A stretch of 64,000 nt of DNA from Adineta ricciae. Taxonomy: Eukaryota > Rotifera > Eurotatoria > Adinetida > Adinetidae. The notes beneath the pieces were generated by a model, which saw only the letters and a program-made list of their open reading frames with translations, did not search any database and had not been told where the DNA came from. The DNA lies in the NCBI GenBank assembly GCA_905250025.1, contig CAJNOJ010000010.1, forward strand, positions 796,964 to 860,963, in the 5' to 3' direction. This document shows positions 2,718-12,766 of the stretch, piece by piece. A program made the position numbers and the translations under genes. How positions within the stretch are numbered: the stretch's first letter is position 1; every line of letters starts with the position of its first letter.

Positions 2718-3025
2718 AATATTTCTCTCCATGTACATCTTTACTTTGGTGCTATCTATTTTGTTATTTCTCCCTATCTTTCTCTTTTTAAATGAACAAA
2801 TGTATGCATTTTCTCCACTAGACTGTGAATATTGCTTTCGAGAGTTATATTTTTCAATAAAAGAAAATATATCTGCATGTCCAATTGATAGAATTGACAA
2901 AAGAACACAAAGTACGACATCTACGATTGATCGACTCAGTGTTACTAAGACAACACATTCCGAGAAGAGACAACAAGATGGTGGAGATGTAGAAATCAAA
3001 TACATTCATCAGTCATAGAAAGAAA
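2718..3025. other. intergenic, PLEKHM2-like to IFT74
   Basis: Two overlapping open frames on opposite strands occur here, both low-complexity or hydrophobic and unlike any family. I take this as 3' UTR plus promoter of the next gene. No clear polyadenylation signal or TATA box is seen. Confidence 0.5.
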
Positions 3026-5207
3026 ATGTCGCGTGCAATTCCGCCGTCATCACGAAATCCACAAAGTTTGTATTGATTATCTCGTGCAAACAAATCGATG
3101 TTTGATTCGTTTAGTGCCAGGTACTAGCAGTGGTCGTCCCATTGGCACGGCTACTCGCTTGACAACTGCTAGCGGAGTGAGTGTTTGTAGCTGTGAAGAT
3201 GATTTCATGTTTTTCGTGGATTTGATAGCAACGTCCGGTTAGTCGAGGTGGTCCACTTGGTTCGAATATGCGTATCAAAGTCGAAGACACGCCGATGAAT
3301 CGAGGTGGGTTAGGAGGCATTCATAATGCATCTGGATTTGGTGGTCGTCAAGTACAAGATCGAACATATTTCGTTGGTCTCGTTCGGTAAATCTTTGGAA
3401 TTGTTTGTTCGACAACTGAGAAATTCCTTCTAGGTCGAAGGTAACGGAACTCGAAGCGGAGATCGAACGTTTGCAACGTGAAACAGATTCATTTACCGAA
3501 GATAACAAACAATATTTTGCGCTGAGCAAAGCGTTCGTATTCACCAACGAAACCATTAATCGCGGCTAATTCTATATTTTGTTTGTAGTGCCGAAGATTT
3601 ATCACAACAAATCGAAAGTTTACGCAATGAATTAGGCGATTACAATATGGTAACTTCAAATCATATCTAAACTTTGATTCATTGAACTGTTTAGATCATC
3701 GATCGATTACAAACAACAGGTGAAGTGGCTGAATTAAAGAAAGAATACGCTGATTTAAGTGCACATAATCACCACGTTGAATCGAATATCGATGAGATTT
3801 ATCTCGAAAAACAGAGGTACGGGATTTCGACAATCATCTTCATTTGTCTCATTCGGATTATCTGCAGGAAAGAGGAACGCATTCAACGTTTAGAACGTGA
3901 CTTGAACGAAGAGAAGAAGAAATCTGAACGACTCTTAGAAAATATGGTACGCCTACTCTTCTGAAGTATCTGTGCTTGATCAAATCTCATTTAGAATCCT
4001 GAGTTTAAACAACGTTATAGTAGAATTAAATCTACATCGAATCAACTACAAAGTCAAATGGATTCAATGCAAAACGAGATCAGTACTCTCGAGAGTCGTA
4101 TGAACAAAATGCGTGAACAAATGTCAGGTGCAGTTATCAAACAAGAAGCGTTATCTTTAGTTGAACAAATTCATGAACTCGAATTAAAACGGGATCATCT
4201 CATGAACGAAAGTAAAAATACCCTAACTCCTGAACAAGAGCGACAGAAACTAACTCAACAAGTTAAAGAAGACAATCAAGAAGTCGCTGCAATGGACAAA
4301 CAAATCAATGAGTTAAAGGAACGAAATGAGTACTTGAAACAAGTCTATGAGACTGACGATGCGCCCTCGTCGTTATTAGTTGAACAACAGAATAAAACAT
4401 CAACGGTCGATGATGACACGAAGCAGAAATATTTAGAATTGAAAAAACGTGAACAACAAATCGATGATTTTCAAGTGACATACGAGCAACAACATGATCA
4501 GCATCTCAGCGACATGAAAGCGATTCAAAAGAATAATCTGACATTATTAGGAATAATCAGTCGTTCGTTAGTGAAAGGTGATCAAATGTTAACCAGAGAC
4601 GATTATACTCAATTGAAAACGAATATTGATCAGCATGAAGCGGAGAAGAAGAAATCAAACGATACATTGGCAATTCTGGCTGAACAGCACCGCAAAGTCA
4701 AACAGGACTATGCGAAGTTAGAAACACTTGATCAAAAACTAACAGATGAATTGCAAGATTTGAAAAAGCAATACGCGAAAATGCAGGAAGATTTAGAGAA
4801 ATTCAACGATATCGAAGGCTTGAAACGAAAAGCTGAAAAACGTAAAATACAACTGGCGGCAGATAAAGCTAACATGGGTAAACAAAGACAAGTGACGAAA
4901 GCGGAAATTCAAACTTTACAATCTCAATTCGAGGCGGCACAAAGCCAATTACGCGATAACGAAACGCATCAACAAGTAAATACACATGTCATCATTGATT
5001 TTCTCACATTGTTTCCTCTTCGTCTAGTTAATTGGCCTTGAAAAGAAACTGCAAACTATTGCACAGACATTGTTTACTCTGGATGAATCTCTTGCCTCAC
5101 AAAATGCAAGTGGCCAGTACGAACAGGTGAAGCGACAAGCACTGGAACTTGTTCAAGCTCATAATCGTTGGTTAACGCATCACTATCAAAACTTTCCTCT
5201 AGCTTAA
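3026..5207 (+). CDS. IFT74: Intraflagellar transport protein 74 (IFT74)
   Basis: Core IFT-B subunit that pairs with IFT81 to carry tubulin into cilia. The first exon encodes a short basic Ser/Pro/Arg leader (MSRAIPPSSRNPQ). It splices to GTSSGRPIGTATRL and then SRGGPLGSNMRIK, the basic N-terminal region typical of IFT74. The next exon gives RTYFVGLVRSK, matching the family block before the coiled coil. The rest is continuous coiled coil with family landmarks: VIKQEALSLVEQIHELE, EERQKL-type QERQKLTQQVKEDNQE and LKKREQQIDDF. The final exon starts near 5030 (LIGLEKKLQ) and ends FPLA at 5207. Several introns of about 50-60 bp are removed. All domains expected of IFT74 are present in order. Confidence 0.93.
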
Positions 5208-6560: not shown

Positions 6561-6982
6561 TCTACGATTTAGACTTTAGTCGGCCTGTTGGAGTGAATGA
6601 GTACAGAAGAAATTGATCTAAAAAACATAAGTTCACAATAAGTTTAGACTTGTTGATTGATGAATAGGAATTAGAATACAAGTACTGTCTATCTATTACT
6701 ACAAATTAGCTCTTTGTCTTTTGAACAATGAGTGCCATATACCGCTTAGACAAAGACAGGATCTTCATCTTCGAAAACAATATTTTCTATTCTTTCAAAA
6801 CATCCGTCTTTTTTAGATAGTTCATTGTGGATCAATACAGGTCAATTTTATCACACGTAATAATACTTGGTATAGGTGTCGCACACAGTCTGTGTTATAA
6901 TTGGCTACTTTTATTTCTAAATTTTTTAGCTTGATTCGATTTACTATCTATGTGTACGCAATTCAGGTGATCGAAAATCGAC
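6561..6982. promoter_or_regulatory. divergent intergenic region, Emi-like / RMND5
   Basis: 422 bp between head-to-head genes, so both promoters should lie here. It is AT-rich with no obvious TATA box. An acceptor-like ATTCAG ends at 6966, 16 nt before the RMND5 start, implying a 5' UTR intron or a trans-splice site. Confidence 0.45.
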
Positions 6983-8250
6983 ATGTCCACAGCAGATAAC
7001 ACGTTGACTCTTCTCGAAAAAGATGCCGATAAAGCGATTGAATCCGTTGAGCAGTTTTACAATGAAATCGAAACGAACATGAACTCGGTTATCGAACAAA
7101 TTCAAACACTGATTACAAATGTGTCCGCTGATCCAAACACCAAAGTCAATCTTCGTGAAACAATCAAGCCATTAGCAAAACAATACAGTGATAAACACAA
7201 AGAGTTGCATGGTTCGATATCAAAAATCGGCAAGACGATTGATAAATGTTTTCAATCCGATTTTGGGAACGTTCCGATTTTTGAATTGTTTGATAAACCA
7301 GAAAAATTGAAAGTTATATATATGATTATATGCGAAGATCTTTACCGACAAGGACGAATGTCCATTGCCCAACAGTTAATCAAAGAAACGAGTTTGAATG
7401 ACAACGAATTATTTAATGTCGAAAAAGAATTCTTAGAAGAAATCAATTTAATTCTCGAAAATTTACGGGAGAAAAATCTCTTACCTGCATTGGAGTGGTG
7501 TAAACGAAACCGCAATGAACTGAACAAAACCGGAAGTCTATTAGAATTCCATTTACATAAAATGCGTTTCGTACAATTGTTAGAATCAGGAAACTTCGAG
7601 CAAGCCAAAGCATACCTATCCAATCTACGACAATACTCCATTTCAAATGGACAATGCGAACAGGCAGTTAACGAATTGATGGGCTCCTTAGTTTTTGCTC
7701 AAAGAGATCTGGCTAAATCACCTTATAAGTATTTACTTGAACCACATCTTTGGTTACAATTATTGGAATTATTTATGCAACAAGCATTTCAACAAGTTGG
7801 ATTAGCTCAAGACAGTCCACTGTATGTCGTGATGAAAACAGGATTTCAAGCCTTACCCGCGCTGATGAGGTAAGCAATAAATTGAGAGAGAATTCATCGT
7901 ACAAATGCTTCCTTTTCACATAGTATTGTCAATGCAATGCAAAATACTCAAGTGTGCCATATTCTATCGAAAGATGAGCTGCCCATCGAAATTGATGTTG
8001 GACAAGAACATCGATATCACAGTGTTTTTGCTTGTCCTATCCTTCGACAACAAACCACAGATCAGAATCCGCCGATGAAACTTGTTTGTGGTCATGTTAT
8101 ATCCAAAGATGCATTGAATAAATTAACTCTACAGAACAAACTGAAATGTCCATATTGTCCGTTAGGTAAGTGGAATAAAGGTGAAAACATTGATTTATTC
8201 ATTCAATTTTAGAACAAAGCCCGGCAGATGCGCGACAACTATTCTTTTGA
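6983..8250 (+). CDS. RMND5: RMND5A/B (GID2) subunit of the CTLH E3 ubiquitin ligase
   Basis: Catalytic RING-type subunit of the CTLH/GID ubiquitin ligase. The first exon (6983-7870) encodes an N-terminal helical region with LisH/CTLH segments ([19 protein letters not shown] around residues 193-211). After a short intron (about 7870-7921) the second part reads [18 protein letters not shown] and [20 protein letters not shown], then CPYCPL, nearly identical to vertebrate RMND5. Another intron (about 8166-8211) leads to [12 protein letters not shown], the conserved terminus. The variant RING lacks some zinc ligands, as is normal for this family. It is the first gene of a compact same-strand run with SPS2, BolA2 and DGCR8. 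Confidence 0.95.
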
Positions 8251-8421
8251 CCGTCGATGTTGCGAGCATCCGGTTGTTGTCTTGTAGTGCATTCTTCGTT
8301 TTTTCGTTTTTCTTCTCTTTTCTTTTCGTGTGCCAATGATAAAGATCAGTCGTTTACTTTCGTCTTTTTTATATGTACAGTTTCAATGTTTTTCGTATTC
8401 ATTTCTTCCTTTTCATCTTGT

Positions 8422-8423
8422 AG
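8422..8423 (+). promoter_or_regulatory. candidate trans-splice (or 5' UTR) acceptor before SPS2
   Basis: A T-rich tract ending TCTTGTAG lies 6 nt before the ATG and 172 nt after the RMND5 stop. With so little space between the genes, a spliced-leader acceptor is plausible. A cis intron in the 5' UTR is the alternative. Confidence 0.5.
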
Positions 8424-8429
8424 ATTGAA

Positions 8430-9900
8430 ATGACATCGAGAAAACCTTTTCATCCATCGGATTATGATTTACCAGATGACTTTCGTCTAACGAGAGTCTC
8501 TGATCTCAAAGGATGAGGTTGTAAAGTTCCTCGGGATCTGTTGCACCGTCTGCTCGAGGGACTTGATTCGACCAATAAAAATGGTTCTAATGACGGGCAA
8601 AATCAAGCCAGCCATTCGGTACTCACGCCAGAGCCGAAATCAACACCGGTGGTTGGTAAGTTCATTGAACCCTTAAAGTGAATATCTGACTTTACTTCGA
8701 ACTTTCCAAGGAATTGGTCTTGATTCTTGTGTACTTCCATTACGTCATGGGGAACTTTTTTTAGTACAATCAACAGATTTCTTTTATCCACTTGTCGATG
8801 ATCCATACGTGATGGTAAAAACTGATCGATTTATACCATGTAGAGATATTTTTCTATTGTTAGGGAAAAATTGCTTGCGCAAATGTTCTAAGTGATATTT
8901 ATGCCATGGGTGTGACTGAAGTCGATAACATGTTAATGCTATTAAGTACCAGTAATAAAATGAGTGAAAAAGAACGTGATACAATTATGCCATTGATGAT
9001 ACAGGGATTTAAAGTAGATAAATTGCTCACAAATCTTGGGAATGTTAACTTTTAAAAAAAAATATCTGATAGGATTGCGCTGAACAAGCCGGTACAGCAG
9101 TACAAGGTGGTCAAACAGTTGTGAATCCATGGTTAATAATCGGTGGCGTTGCTACATCAGTTTGTAAACCGAATGAAGTTATAATTCCAGAGCATGCTGT
9201 GATTGGTGATGTGCTAGTGTTAACAAAGCCACTGGGCATCCAGGTTTGTTGTTGTTGTTGTCTATATTTTAAAGCCAAAAAATCAACCGTATTTTGTTTT
9301 GTAAATGAAGGTAGCTGTGAATGCGCATCAATGGCTTGAAAAGCCAGACCGATGGGAACGTATAAAATCTGTGGTAACTGTCGATGATGTTGAAAAAGCC
9401 TACCAACGGGCAATGAAATCCATGGCTCGACTTAATAAAATCGGTATGTTAACGACCTCTGCAATTCCCTTCCCTAGCAAAATTGTTTCATGTTCGTTTT
9501 AGCTGCATCTCTTCTGCACAAATACGATGCACATGCTTGTACCGACGTCACTGGCTTCGGTATACTGGGTCATGCTCAAAATTTAGCTCAACATCAGAAA
9601 AACGAAGTAGCATTCGTTATTCATAGTCTACCCATTATCGCTAAAATGACAACGATTAGCAAAACTTGTAACAATGCATTTAATCTGTTGCGAGGAACGG
9701 CAGCAGAAACATCAGGTGGTTTATTAATAGCGTTACCATACGATCAGGCAGCTGGTTATTGTAAGGAGATTCAAGAGAAAGAAGGTTACCAAGCATGGAT
9801 TATCGGTATAGTAGAAAAAGGTGATCGAACAGCAAAAATTGTCGACAATCCTCGAGTTATTGAAGTACCAGCACAAGATACAGACGGTGAATTATGGTAA
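8430..9900 (+). CDS. SEPHS2: Selenophosphate synthetase with in-frame TGA (Sec) at the catalytic position
   Basis: Makes selenophosphate, the selenium donor for selenocysteine. The protein starts [15 protein letters not shown] and [11 protein letters not shown], aligning end to end with SEPHS1. Codon 29 is TGA (8514-8516), followed by GCKVPRDLL. This is exactly where SEPHS1 has Thr29 and SEPHS2 has selenocysteine, so TGA is most likely recoded. Later exons carry [68 protein letters not shown] and ETSGGLL, all family hallmarks. Five introns of about 50-70 bp are removed (first 8656-8710). It ends TDGELW, TAA 9898-9900. Arginine or other readthrough, as in insect SPS1-UGA genes, is an alternative to Sec. 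Confidence 0.92.
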
Positions 9901-9927
9901 ATGGCTTGGAAGCGTAGTACTGGCGTG

Positions 9928-9963
9928 ATGCGTTTCTAATCTGATTTATCCAAAGAAAAGCAT
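9928..9963 (+). other. 3' UTR hairpin, SECIS not confirmed
   Basis: The arms ATGCGTTTCT (9928-9937) and AGAAAAGCAT (9954-9963) pair over ten positions with one G-A mismatch. They enclose a 16-nt loop that begins with AA. Position, helix length and AA loop recall a SECIS element. A TGAT lies at the 5' base, but I do not see the facing GA that completes the SECIS quartet, so the call is weak. Confidence 0.25.
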
Positions 9964-10189
9964 ATGGGAGAGAAAAAAATGAGTTTTTCTATTCAATTTC
10001 TTGTTTTTCTTGTTTTACAACATTGCTTGACAAGGATGTGTATGAAGAATTAATAGCTCAAGACTTCAGATATGATTCTGTGGTGGCTATTAATCGGAGT
10101 TTTCCTGTTCAAGTATTGTAGGACGATTAACCTAGATTGATACATTTTTTTCTATCTCTTCTGCTTTGAAACAGTTTTTGAAATATTTT

Positions 10190-10191
10190 AG
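10190..10191 (+). promoter_or_regulatory. candidate trans-splice acceptor before BolA2
   Basis: ATATTTTAG ends 5 nt before the BolA2 ATG, in a pyrimidine/AT tract less than 300 nt after the SPS2 stop. Confidence 0.5.
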
Positions 10192-10196
10192 ATAAA

Positions 10197-10638
10197 ATGG
10201 AAATTAATAAAAATAACATCGAAAAGAAATTACGCGATGCATTCGAACCAACCTACTTAGTAAGTTGAAAGGATTGGTTCCTGACTGCCAGTAACGAAAA
10301 TTGCTTATTGATTTAGAACGTCGAGGATTGCTCGAGTGGCTGTGGTTTGAAATTTGATACAATAATTGTATCGCAAAAATTCGAAGGTAAACAACTGCTG
10401 GCAAGACAAAGGTATGTTCAATTCTTTGACTTTGGCTCATTTTTGTTTTCAATTTGACGTGTTTAGATTAGTCAATGACTTGCTGAAAGATGAAATGACA
10501 AAAATTCATGCATTTACTCAAAAGACATACACGCCTGACGAATGGGAGAAGAAACAAGAGAAAGCAGCCACAAATCCTGATTGTCCAATTAAATCAACAA
10601 GTGCTTGTACCGGCAATTGTGGAAATTGCCCAAAATAA
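10197..10638 (+). CDS. BOLA2: BolA-like protein 2 with Cys-rich C-terminal tail
   Basis: BolA2 works with monothiol glutaredoxin 3 in cytosolic Fe-S cluster delivery. Three exons encode about 108 residues: an N-terminal helix (KKLRDAFEPTYL), then [34 protein letters not shown] with the conserved Cys and the FxGKxLLxRHR-like signature. The third exon carries LLKDEMTKIHAFTQKTYTPDEW, as in human BOLA2. Introns lie near 10260-10316 and 10411-10467. The His usually found in the RHR ligand position is Gln here (LLARQRLV), as in human BOLA2. Vertebrate BOLA2 stops shortly after the TPDQW block. This protein continues with KKQEKAATNPDCPI and a tail containing ACTGNCGNCPK, adding four cysteines. Confidence 0.93.
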
Positions 10639-10664
10639 TCTTTTGGATTTCTTTCTTTTTCATT

Positions 10665-10670
10665 AATAAA
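10665..10670 (+). terminator. polyadenylation signal of BolA2
   Basis: AATAAA 26 nt after the BolA2 stop. The DGCR8 start lies only 80 nt further on, which leaves no room for a normal promoter plus 5' UTR. Confidence 0.6.
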
Positions 10671-10746
10671 CAAGAACAGTTTTTCTCATTTCATGATTAG
10701 AGGTTAACCGGTCAATGAAATCAACTCTTTTCCTTTGTTTACTTTC

Positions 10747-10748
10747 AG
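10747..10748 (+). promoter_or_regulatory. candidate trans-splice acceptor before DGCR8
   Basis: TTTGTTTACTTTCAG ends one base before the DGCR8 ATG and 77 nt after the BolA2 AATAAA. The spacing resembles intercistronic regions of trans-spliced operons. Confidence 0.6.
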
Positions 10749-10749
10749 A

Positions 10750-12766
10750 ATGGAAGGTGAAGATTTAGATGATTCAATGGACGAGACTCTTGCAGAGAAA
10801 TCTGCAGATGCATCTCAAACATCACAACCTACAGGCCAACCGAAAGTTACTCTTCGATGGACAGTCAAAGGCTATTCCCAGGATAAACGAAACCATACAT
10901 TACCAGATGGTTGGTGTGAAGTATTCCATACTAGTGGATTTCCATTGTACTTTCATAAACAAACACGTGTAGTCACATTATCTCGTCCGTATTTTCTTGG
11001 TTCAGTTAGTGTTCGTCATCACTTGATACCGATCTCATCAATACCATGTCTGTATATGAAACGACTGCAGGAAGAACAAATAGAAACAGGTGAATCGGCA
11101 GCAACAAGCACTGAAGCCAAATGTCCATTTAAAATGAATGAACAAGAAAACTCTTCATCAACGATAAATCGTAAACGAAAACGTAGTGATATGGATAACG
11201 AAGATGTCGAAGAAGGTGAAATCTCCTCTCCTCATCCGCCGACACAAGTCAACGGCGAAGATTCTTCATCTTCTCTTTCCGCTCACCCAACATTGCAACC
11301 GGTGGATCCATTACCAACTGATACAACTACACCATCGACTTGTCCAGCACAAACACGTCCACCTAAACCACAGCAACTACCAGTTTCTTTACAAATCCTA
11401 TCGAATACAACACTAGACGATGCTCTGTACTTCAGTACGTTAACATCAGATGAACTACGTTCGTATTGTCAACGTCGACTAGCATTTGAACAGCGTGAAT
11501 TCAAATTTTTCCCATCATTAAGTGACAAGTGGAAGTACATTCGACAAGCTCAAATGAAACGTCGTGAAATGAACACGCCAGCTGATACACAAACCATAGA
11601 ACTTCAGCCGTTGACAACCCCCGATCAATCAGTTGTCGTTTCAGCGACATTAAAAACGACTGACGGACCATTATCAGCACCCTCTCGCCCATCAACAACT
11701 TTCGAATCAACGAACTCAACAAATAAGAAAGTAACAATCGATCTCTATCCGAATAAAAGTCCCATAGCACTTTTACAAGAGTACGCACTCAAACGTTTGA
11801 AGTTAATCGTTCGATATGAATGGTTTACGACCGATGAATCCAATTCCCCATTTGGCTGTCGTGTTTTTGTTGGTGATACTGCCTATGGCACAGGTATTGG
11901 TCGGAACAAACGTACTGCGAAACTGAAAGCAACAGAAGAATCGCTGATTATTCTAATCCCTCAATATAAAAAACTACAAGAACAACAGCAACAAACAGGA
12001 AATAAACAAACCATTATCGAAGACAAAACACTCGAAGAAGGTTGTATCGACGATGACGAACCATCGACAATTGTAAATAACACTGCCAACCATCCAGACC
12101 ACACCAACAACAGCAATGACAATGATAACAAAACCAATTCGAATGAAGAAGATCCAGTCAGTAGTTCGTTATTAGATGAATACAACATTCTAGATGCTAA
12201 TCTATATGATGTATGTACCGCGTTGGGTAAACCTACACCTTATCAAATGTTGGAAAAGAGTATAACATACAATGCATTGACACGCGGAGAATCAAATATT
12301 AAACTAACAATGACAAAGAAGCCGATGTTCACACATATTACTCTCGAAATAGGTAATGAACACAAGGAAGAAGCCCAAGCGAAGGATAAAGCGCATGCGA
12401 AAAACCTTGGTAAAATCTGCCATTAACTTTTCTTTCGAAATCGTTGCATTTTGTCTTCCTCTAATTTTAGCTGCTCAAAAACTATTAAGAAAACTCCACC
12501 CGTATTTACCTGCATACGGATCATTAATTCGTTTGTATGAAAAAAATGCTGATACTTATAAACGTGTTCGCGTCGACGATGAATTAGCTGATATCGTTCG
12601 TGCTGCGAAAAAGAATGAACCAAATCACGCTCTATTAGCTAAACTTCGTGAAGAAATGTTACGTTTGAAAGCCAATAAAACTTCTTCCTCGTCGACATTC
12701 AATCACTATGCAATACATGTCGTTGATGTGAATGATGAACTTCTCGGCCGTTCATCATCCACGTAG
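10750..12766 (+). CDS. DGCR8: DGCR8 / Pasha, Microprocessor subunit
   Basis: Partner of Drosha in primary microRNA processing, nuclear. Two exons join across a 61-bp intron (12410-12470). A WW/heme-binding region is at residues about 54-100: LPDGWCEVFHTSGFPLYFHK, then RVVTLSRPYFLG and SSIPCL, whose Cys is the heme ligand in the family. A low-complexity acidic linker follows. The first dsRNA-binding domain (SPIALLQEYALKRLK, then SPFGCRVFVGDTAYGTGIGRNKRTAKLKA) and second dsRBD (TPYQMLEKSITYN, then AKDKAHAKNLAAQKLLRKLHP) precede the conserved C-terminal helix (YGSLIRLYEK.., LAKLREEMLRLK) that binds Drosha. The second WW tryptophan, VVTWSRP in vertebrates, is Leu here. The ATG directly follows an acceptor-like CAG; an upstream in-frame ATG at 10735 overlaps that site and is less likely. 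Confidence 0.95.

Follow-up and report, generated by a model that had tools for sequence, protein, structure and literature searches.

We identified a six-exon selenophosphate synthetase (SPS) gene at positions 8430-9900 of the forward strand of the window (the whole 64-kb stretch of DNA analysed here), and its in-frame UGA at the catalytic position is in all probability decoded as selenocysteine (Sec; probability about 0.94), which would make the gene an animal selenoprotein SPS2. The gene, its TGA, the machinery genes in the genome, the predicted RNA structures and the conservation of these structures in an old second copy are directly established, and from them we infer Sec insertion and enzyme activity. 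In the proposed mechanism, tRNA-Sec(UCA), EFSec and SBP2 would read the UGA as Sec under the direction of the 3'UTR SECIS-like element, and the stem-loop that starts 7 nt past the UGA would assist decoding. Sec29 would then be the catalytic residue for making selenophosphate, which would in turn serve as the selenium donor for Sec on tRNA-Sec itself.

An SPS gene with an in-frame TGA at the catalytic position

The spliced SPS frame contains 393 codons followed by TAA, and its sole internal stop is the TGA (Table 1). As had been claimed in the preliminary description, this TGA lies at codon 29 between LKG and GCKVP, and the residue aligned to it in human SEPHS1 is Thr. The further claim that the frame continues through a full, conserved protein holds once five short introns are removed; the unspliced genomic frame itself meets a stop at 8679-8681, just beyond exon 1. 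In phmmer searches of PDB chains, the window SPS matches human SEPHS1 (3fd5) over query residues 1-386 with E=2.6e-165 (64.5% identity) and L. major SPS (5l16) with E=1.5e-82, the crystallised chain of the latter carrying Cys at the TGA position. The protein also scores 264.7 bits against NCBIfam TIGR00476 (selD; cut-off 125), and it retains the ATP/metal-site residues Lys32, Asp80, Asp98, Asp121 and Asp276 (window numbering). The possibility that the TGA lies inside a removed intron, which had been named as a refutation, is ruled out, as the codon sits within exon 1 with coding alignment on both sides, and this exon aligns across it without gaps to human SEPHS1 and to the second SPS copy on contig C29.

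Table 1. Positions of SPS gene features and predicted RNA elements in the window
Feature	Position	Strand	Remarks
SPS exon 1	8430..8655	+	contains TGA codon; homology to human SEPHS1
In-frame TGA, codon 29, catalytic Sec position	8514..8516	+	counted from ATG 8430; flanks VSDLKG / GCKVPRD
SRE-like 12-bp stem-loop	8524..8564	+	arms 8524-8535 / 8553-8564; begins 7 nt after TGA
SPS exon 2	8711..8814	+	carries Asp80 and Asp98
SPS exon 3	8864..9013	+	
SPS exon 4	9073..9243	+	
SPS exon 5	9311..9443	+	
SPS exon 6	9503..9900	+	stop codon TAA 9898-9900
SECIS-like element	10026..10113	+	helix I 10026-10036 / 10103-10113; helix II 10047-10057 / 10086-10095
SECIS-like core	ATGA 10042-10045 with GGAG 10096-10099	+	unpaired AA 10060-10061

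Several other genes surround SPS. Upstream, a CTLH-domain gene occupies 6971-8212 (+; PF10607, 101.7 bits), which we take to be RMND5/GID2-like, and C29 has two copies of an RMND5-like gene, also on the upstream side of SPS. A BolA-like gene at 10197-10640 (+; PF01722, 30.2 bits) starts 296 bases past the SPS stop codon, with the SECIS-like element lying between the two; on C29, no counterpart of the BolA-like gene was seen between SPS and the SH3 gene. The frame at 10708-12426 (+) encodes a dsRNA-binding domain (PF00035, 39.8 bits) and a WW-like N-terminal part, and may resemble DGCR8/Pasha.

The genome searched (G000) comprises 130.46 Mb in 1033 contigs, and the window sits on contig C10. 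Among side observations from this genome are 67 PF10613 matches representing ionotropic glutamate receptor frames, some of which are 700-1000 codons long and intronless. The best PDB match of one intronless frame is the ligand-binding domain of AvGluR1 (4io2; 210.2 bits, the next match reaching 89.1), presumably the Adineta vaga receptor, and AMPA receptors are the best match of another. The AvGluR1 match, taken with the duplicated block described below, makes a bdelloid source probable. TGTGGG is the bdelloid telomere repeat, and arrays of it gave 28 matches in the genome, including an interstitial array on C164; these matches are not diagnostic, since the control pattern was that repeat in rotated form.

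The second SPS copy and its substitution at Asp98

A protein-query search of the genome found two SPS loci, one on C10 (the window gene) and one on C29, and an additional exon-1 fragment on C29. The C29 gene runs from 83364 to 82002 of its contig (minus strand of L021, with ATG at 4365 and a TAG ending at 3003) in four exons, and carries TGA at codon 28, equivalent to window codon 29. The intron number differs between the copies, as window introns 8815-8863 and 9244-9310 are without counterpart in C29. The fragment (C29:87505-87654), situated behind the second of the RMND5-like copies, likewise contains the TGA and is cut short near an N. The region C29:83600-88900 (L021 4600-9900), holding this second RMND5-like copy and the SPS fragment, looks like a misjoined or misassembled allele or a tandem duplication. 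Because the TGA occurs at the same codon in the C29 SPS and in the truncated exon-1 copy, it is more than a chance or sequencing slip in the window gene.

Frames beyond SPS are also shared by the two contigs. At E<=1e-10, 23 of the 88 window frames of >=90 residues match C29 (52.6-90.5 kb); they extend from 5.6 to 53.8 kb of the window and are collinear save for one inverted stretch at about 31.9-34.4 kb. This largely shared order indicates that the two SPS copies are products of a block duplication. Bdelloids show degenerate tetraploidy, so duplicated blocks are expected (PMC7730656, in the portion available).

The two SPS proteins are identical at 307 of 389 positions (78.9%), and the C29 protein is 66.0% identical to human SEPHS1. 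Over the whole read-through frame, our own Nei-Gojobori script gives a dN of 0.122 and a dS of 1.257 (ratio 0.097). Tajima's relative-rate test on the two copies is not significant (25 vs 20 informative sites, chi2 0.56); SPS2 is reported to have evolved faster after other duplications, and the present pair does not show this. Being otherwise intact and conserved, the C29 gene is not taken for a pseudogene, and judged from its sequence it probably also inserts Sec.

At nine sites, human SEPHS1 and L. major SPS agree while the two rotifer copies differ. One of them is window Asp98 (human D87, L. major D97), which is Ala in C29 through a codon difference of two bases (GAT vs GCA), and another is Glu245, which is Arg in C29. 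For comparison with bacterial SelD, we used all of the best 80 of at least 583 confirmed relatives found with alignment A2 in genome contigs; scans of genome-contig and viral-contig collections with alignment A1 gave no relatives. The equivalents of Asp98, Asp121 and Asp276 are Asp, and that of Asn117 is Asn, in 80/80 of these best 80 of at least 583 SelD sequences. Within the same best 80 of at least 583, the Asp80 equivalent is Asp in 37 of 38 covering loci, and the codon 29 equivalent is a stop in 17 and Cys in 5 of 22 covering loci. The available part of PMC7595633 lists L. major Asp97 as an ATP-phosphate-binding residue; its Thr95, Asp97 and Asp120 agree exactly with the numbering used here, and not all of its other numbers do. 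According to the portion of PMC4210487 at hand, the metals in SPS are coordinated by four Asp residues.

The substitution makes it likely, as far as sequence can tell, that the C29 SPS is altered in catalysis. We would give even odds to a division of roles, in which selenophosphate synthesis falls to the window copy and the C29 copy, inactive or altered by the change of Asp98 to Ala, serves an SPS1 function or acts as a regulatory partner in a dimer. The invariance of this Asp in the bacterial sample (80/80 of the best 80 of at least 583), in human SEPHS1 and in L. major SPS, its listing among the ATP-phosphate-binding residues in the available part of PMC7595633 and the two base changes needed for GAT to become GCA all favour such a division, as does a C29 copy that is otherwise conserved and evolves no faster than its partner. 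Against it, human SEPHS1 is itself an SPS1 protein and retains D87, so that loss of the Asp is not a known SPS1 mark; the Ala is moreover read from one assembly, and another residue may replace Asp98.

RNA signals, selenocysteine machinery and the reading of the UGA

We searched for SECIS elements using a pattern finder that requires an ATGA/GTGA quartet, AA at offset 10-14, a helix of >=8 pairs and a 3' GA. Both strands of the 64-kb window yield 34 hits, and the lowest energy (-15.8) is that of the hit at 10042 in the SPS 3'UTR, a value reached in 1 of 300 dinucleotide shuffles of this 3'UTR. The element in the C29 SPS 3'UTR has an energy of -11.5, reached in 0/300 shuffles. The finder criteria were widened after candidates had been seen and before the background count (the minimum length was lowered to take in GPx elements), so these energies and shuffle figures are supportive, not independent or calibrated. 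The finder also ranks the SelW element poorly (-7.8, second in its stretch behind a hit of -11.7 farther downstream) and gives only -4.5 for the SECIS-like element of locus L036. When the whole element is folded, the window copy has a z of -2.63 (1/200 shuffles as good) and the C29 copy a z of -1.67 (11/200); without constraints, the C29 element folds with part of its quartet paired differently. The strongest evidence for a SECIS is the conservation of the predicted pairs between the copies: a hand-made structural alignment preserves 18/18 pairs in helices I and II, of which 12 are the same in both copies, 1 differs on one side and 5 differ on both sides.

Rfam does not score these elements. 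At gathering threshold it gives 0 matches in the whole 64-kb window, and SECIS_1 at E<=10 has no match in window 8200-10800, in 9901-10200 or in the C29 SPS 3'UTR. The same model picks up the elements of GPx (26.3 bits, E=0.0038) and SelW (23.7 bits, E=0.018), with scores under its cut-off of 35 in both cases. In a comparison by eye with the SECIS_1 consensus, both SPS elements carry an additional unpaired base in helix II, and two bases precede the AA in the window element; in our reading, these departures account for the low scores. By pattern, shuffles and covariation, we judge a SECIS to be present in the SPS 3'UTR even though SECIS_1 leaves it unscored.

The predicted stem-loop after the UGA has a minimum free energy of -23.6 for 8514-8575 (z -2.47, 5/200 shuffles as good), and the same stem is found in the C29 copy (z -2.88, 3/200). 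The codons of the stem arms are identical between the copies in 8/8 cases, compared with 164 of the 291 codons that can be compared across the gene (P ~0.010 at the overall rate), and of 42 placements of this shape along the gene, only 1 shows full identity between the copies. As modelled, the stem-loop corresponds to the SRE that the accessible part of PMC4561486 describes for SPS2 genes.

The genome also encodes the Sec machinery. Two of six RF01852 matches, on C165 and C275, exceed the cut-off of 47 with 69.8 bits each, and ARAGORN calls both tRNA-SeC with anticodon tca (UCA); the genes themselves do not differ in sequence, and their flanks differ slightly. ARAGORN was also applied to two of the four weaker matches and calls both tRNA-Ser. 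Only the two strong matches are counted, because RF01852 matches occur in 14/14 prokaryotic control genomes (above cut-off in 5). EFSec is represented by two adjacent PF21208 matches on C76 (56.3 and 56.2 bits) belonging to one gene, and this family has matches in 0/14 of the prokaryotic controls. SBP2 is identified by a 428-residue frame on C95 whose phmmer match to SECISBP2 (7zjw) has E=1.2e-46, the next best being 4.6e-5; SepSecS is on C11 (285.8 and 89.4 bits). The PSTK candidate reaches 44 bits against TIGR03575, below the cut-off of 382.35, matches an L-seryl-tRNA(Sec) kinase in the PDB with E=0.0048 and also scores 36.9 bits against Pfam KTI12, above the cut-off of 22, so this identification is provisional. 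Thus, of the genes for which the preliminary description had proposed a search, tRNA-Sec, EFSec and SBP2 were found, and PSTK is represented by a candidate.

Further genes with TGA at Sec positions are present. Near-identical GPx copies on C82 and C120, two of nine PF00255 matches, have TGA at the active site, and three of six PF10262 loci (L034, L036 and L039) show a SelW-type CxxU pattern with TGA (CGA*G / CGG*G). The SelT-like locus L037 (C48:451255-451728, minus strand) reads CQGC, with Cys at the Sec place of CxxU; human SELENOT has Sec there.

These observations bear on how the UGA is read. The preliminary description had suggested a working Sec system, which tRNA-Sec, EFSec, SBP2, SepSecS and the SECIS-like element support, with the PSTK candidate below cut-off, or else a readthrough of the insect SPS1-UGA type. 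In the latter case, an ordinary tRNA would read the UGA with help from the stem-loop, and the product would serve an SPS1 function and not selenophosphate synthesis. The strong stem-loop after the UGA in both SPS copies fits such a mechanism, as do the lack of Rfam recognition of either 3'UTR element and the HRE and SRE structures reported at the UGA site in the accessible part of PMC4561486. The same part of that paper (Mariotti 2015) states that a GGG-UG[C/U] hexanucleotide follows the UGA in SPS1-UGA genes. This hexanucleotide is missing here, the window having GGT-TGT and C29 having GGA-TGT, and SECIS-like elements are kept in both copies with compensatory changes. In addition, tRNA-Sec, EFSec, SBP2 and SepSecS are all in the genome, the further UGA selenoprotein genes need a source of selenophosphate, and a tblastn-type genome search (two loci and one fragment) found no Cys-type or Sec-free SPS copy. 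We consider readthrough by an ordinary tRNA very improbable. The combination that had been named as refuting Sec decoding, absence of tRNA-Sec together with an intact second SPS, is not what the genome holds: tRNA-Sec is present, and the second SPS also has the TGA. That the TGA is an ordinary premature stop and the window SPS a pseudogene has nothing in its favour beyond the stop codon itself and is next to impossible, given a frame otherwise intact over 393 codons and six exons, a dN/dS of 0.097 against the paralogue, the retained catalytic residues Asp80, Asp98, Asp121, Asp276 and Lys32, and a TGA at the same codon of the paralogue.

Comparison with known SPS genes and implications

Decoding of the UGA as Sec, which is also how most animals read it in this gene, would place the window gene beside metazoan SPS2-Sec (SEPHS2), which, in the accessible part of PMC4561486, has the same catalytic UGA, SRE stem-loop and Sec machinery in the genome, together with a 3'UTR SECIS to which the rotifer SECIS-like element probably corresponds; the rotifer 3'UTR element differs in scoring too low for Rfam SECIS_1. 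The insect SPS1-UGA genes (Hymenoptera and some Paraneoptera) resemble the rotifer pair in being duplicate SPS genes that keep the UGA and in having a stem-loop across the UGA region, but they have the GGG-UG[C/U] hexanucleotide and no SECIS, whereas both rotifer copies have a SECIS-like element and lack the hexanucleotide. Vertebrate SEPHS1 (SPS1-Thr) is likewise a block duplication product of SPS2, and is 64.5% (window) and 66.0% (C29) identical to the rotifer proteins. It has Thr for Sec, no SECIS and the Asp (D87) in place, while the C29 copy has lost that Asp.

In the published SPS1-type duplications covered by the available part of PMC4561486, Sec was replaced by Thr, Gly, Leu or Arg, or the UGA persisted without a SECIS in some insects. 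Those SPS1 copies thus lost the SECIS and usually Sec, whereas the rotifer C29 copy keeps the UGA and a SECIS-like element and is changed in its catalytic site instead. The closest parallel is the marsupial pair SPS2a / SPS2b (Mariotti et al. 2012, PMC3316567, in the part available), where one genome also holds two SPS2 genes, both with UGA and SECIS. The marsupial pair arose by retrotransposition and encodes near-identical proteins, while the rotifer pair lies in a duplicated block, shares 78.9% identity and includes one copy that has lost an active-site Asp. Two Sec-type SPS copies therefore have a precedent, and a copy with an active-site Asp lost was not seen in the available parts of PMC4561486 and PMC3316567. 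The main texts of PMC4561486 and PMC5330540 nowhere name rotifers (the 2015 supplements or poster may include them), and among the titles listed from the literature searched, none concerned a rotifer SPS or its SECIS.

Our results place an apparently working Sec system in a bdelloid rotifer, along with an SPS of the Sec type. More tentatively, an ancient block duplication may have left two SPS selenoproteins, one of which lost an Asp of the metal/ATP site, with catalysis altered first and Sec kept; from sequence comparison, we regard this history as possible but rather unlikely. If it is true, the C29 protein would be a Sec-containing SPS without selenophosphate synthesis, its Sec would serve an SPS1 function or a dimer partner, and the order of subfunctionalisation would differ from that in published SPS duplications. 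The C29 copy, which is under purifying selection and keeps the UGA and the RNA signals but not the active-site Asp, would then separate selenophosphate synthesis from SPS1 function and offer a natural test of the purpose of Sec in SPS.
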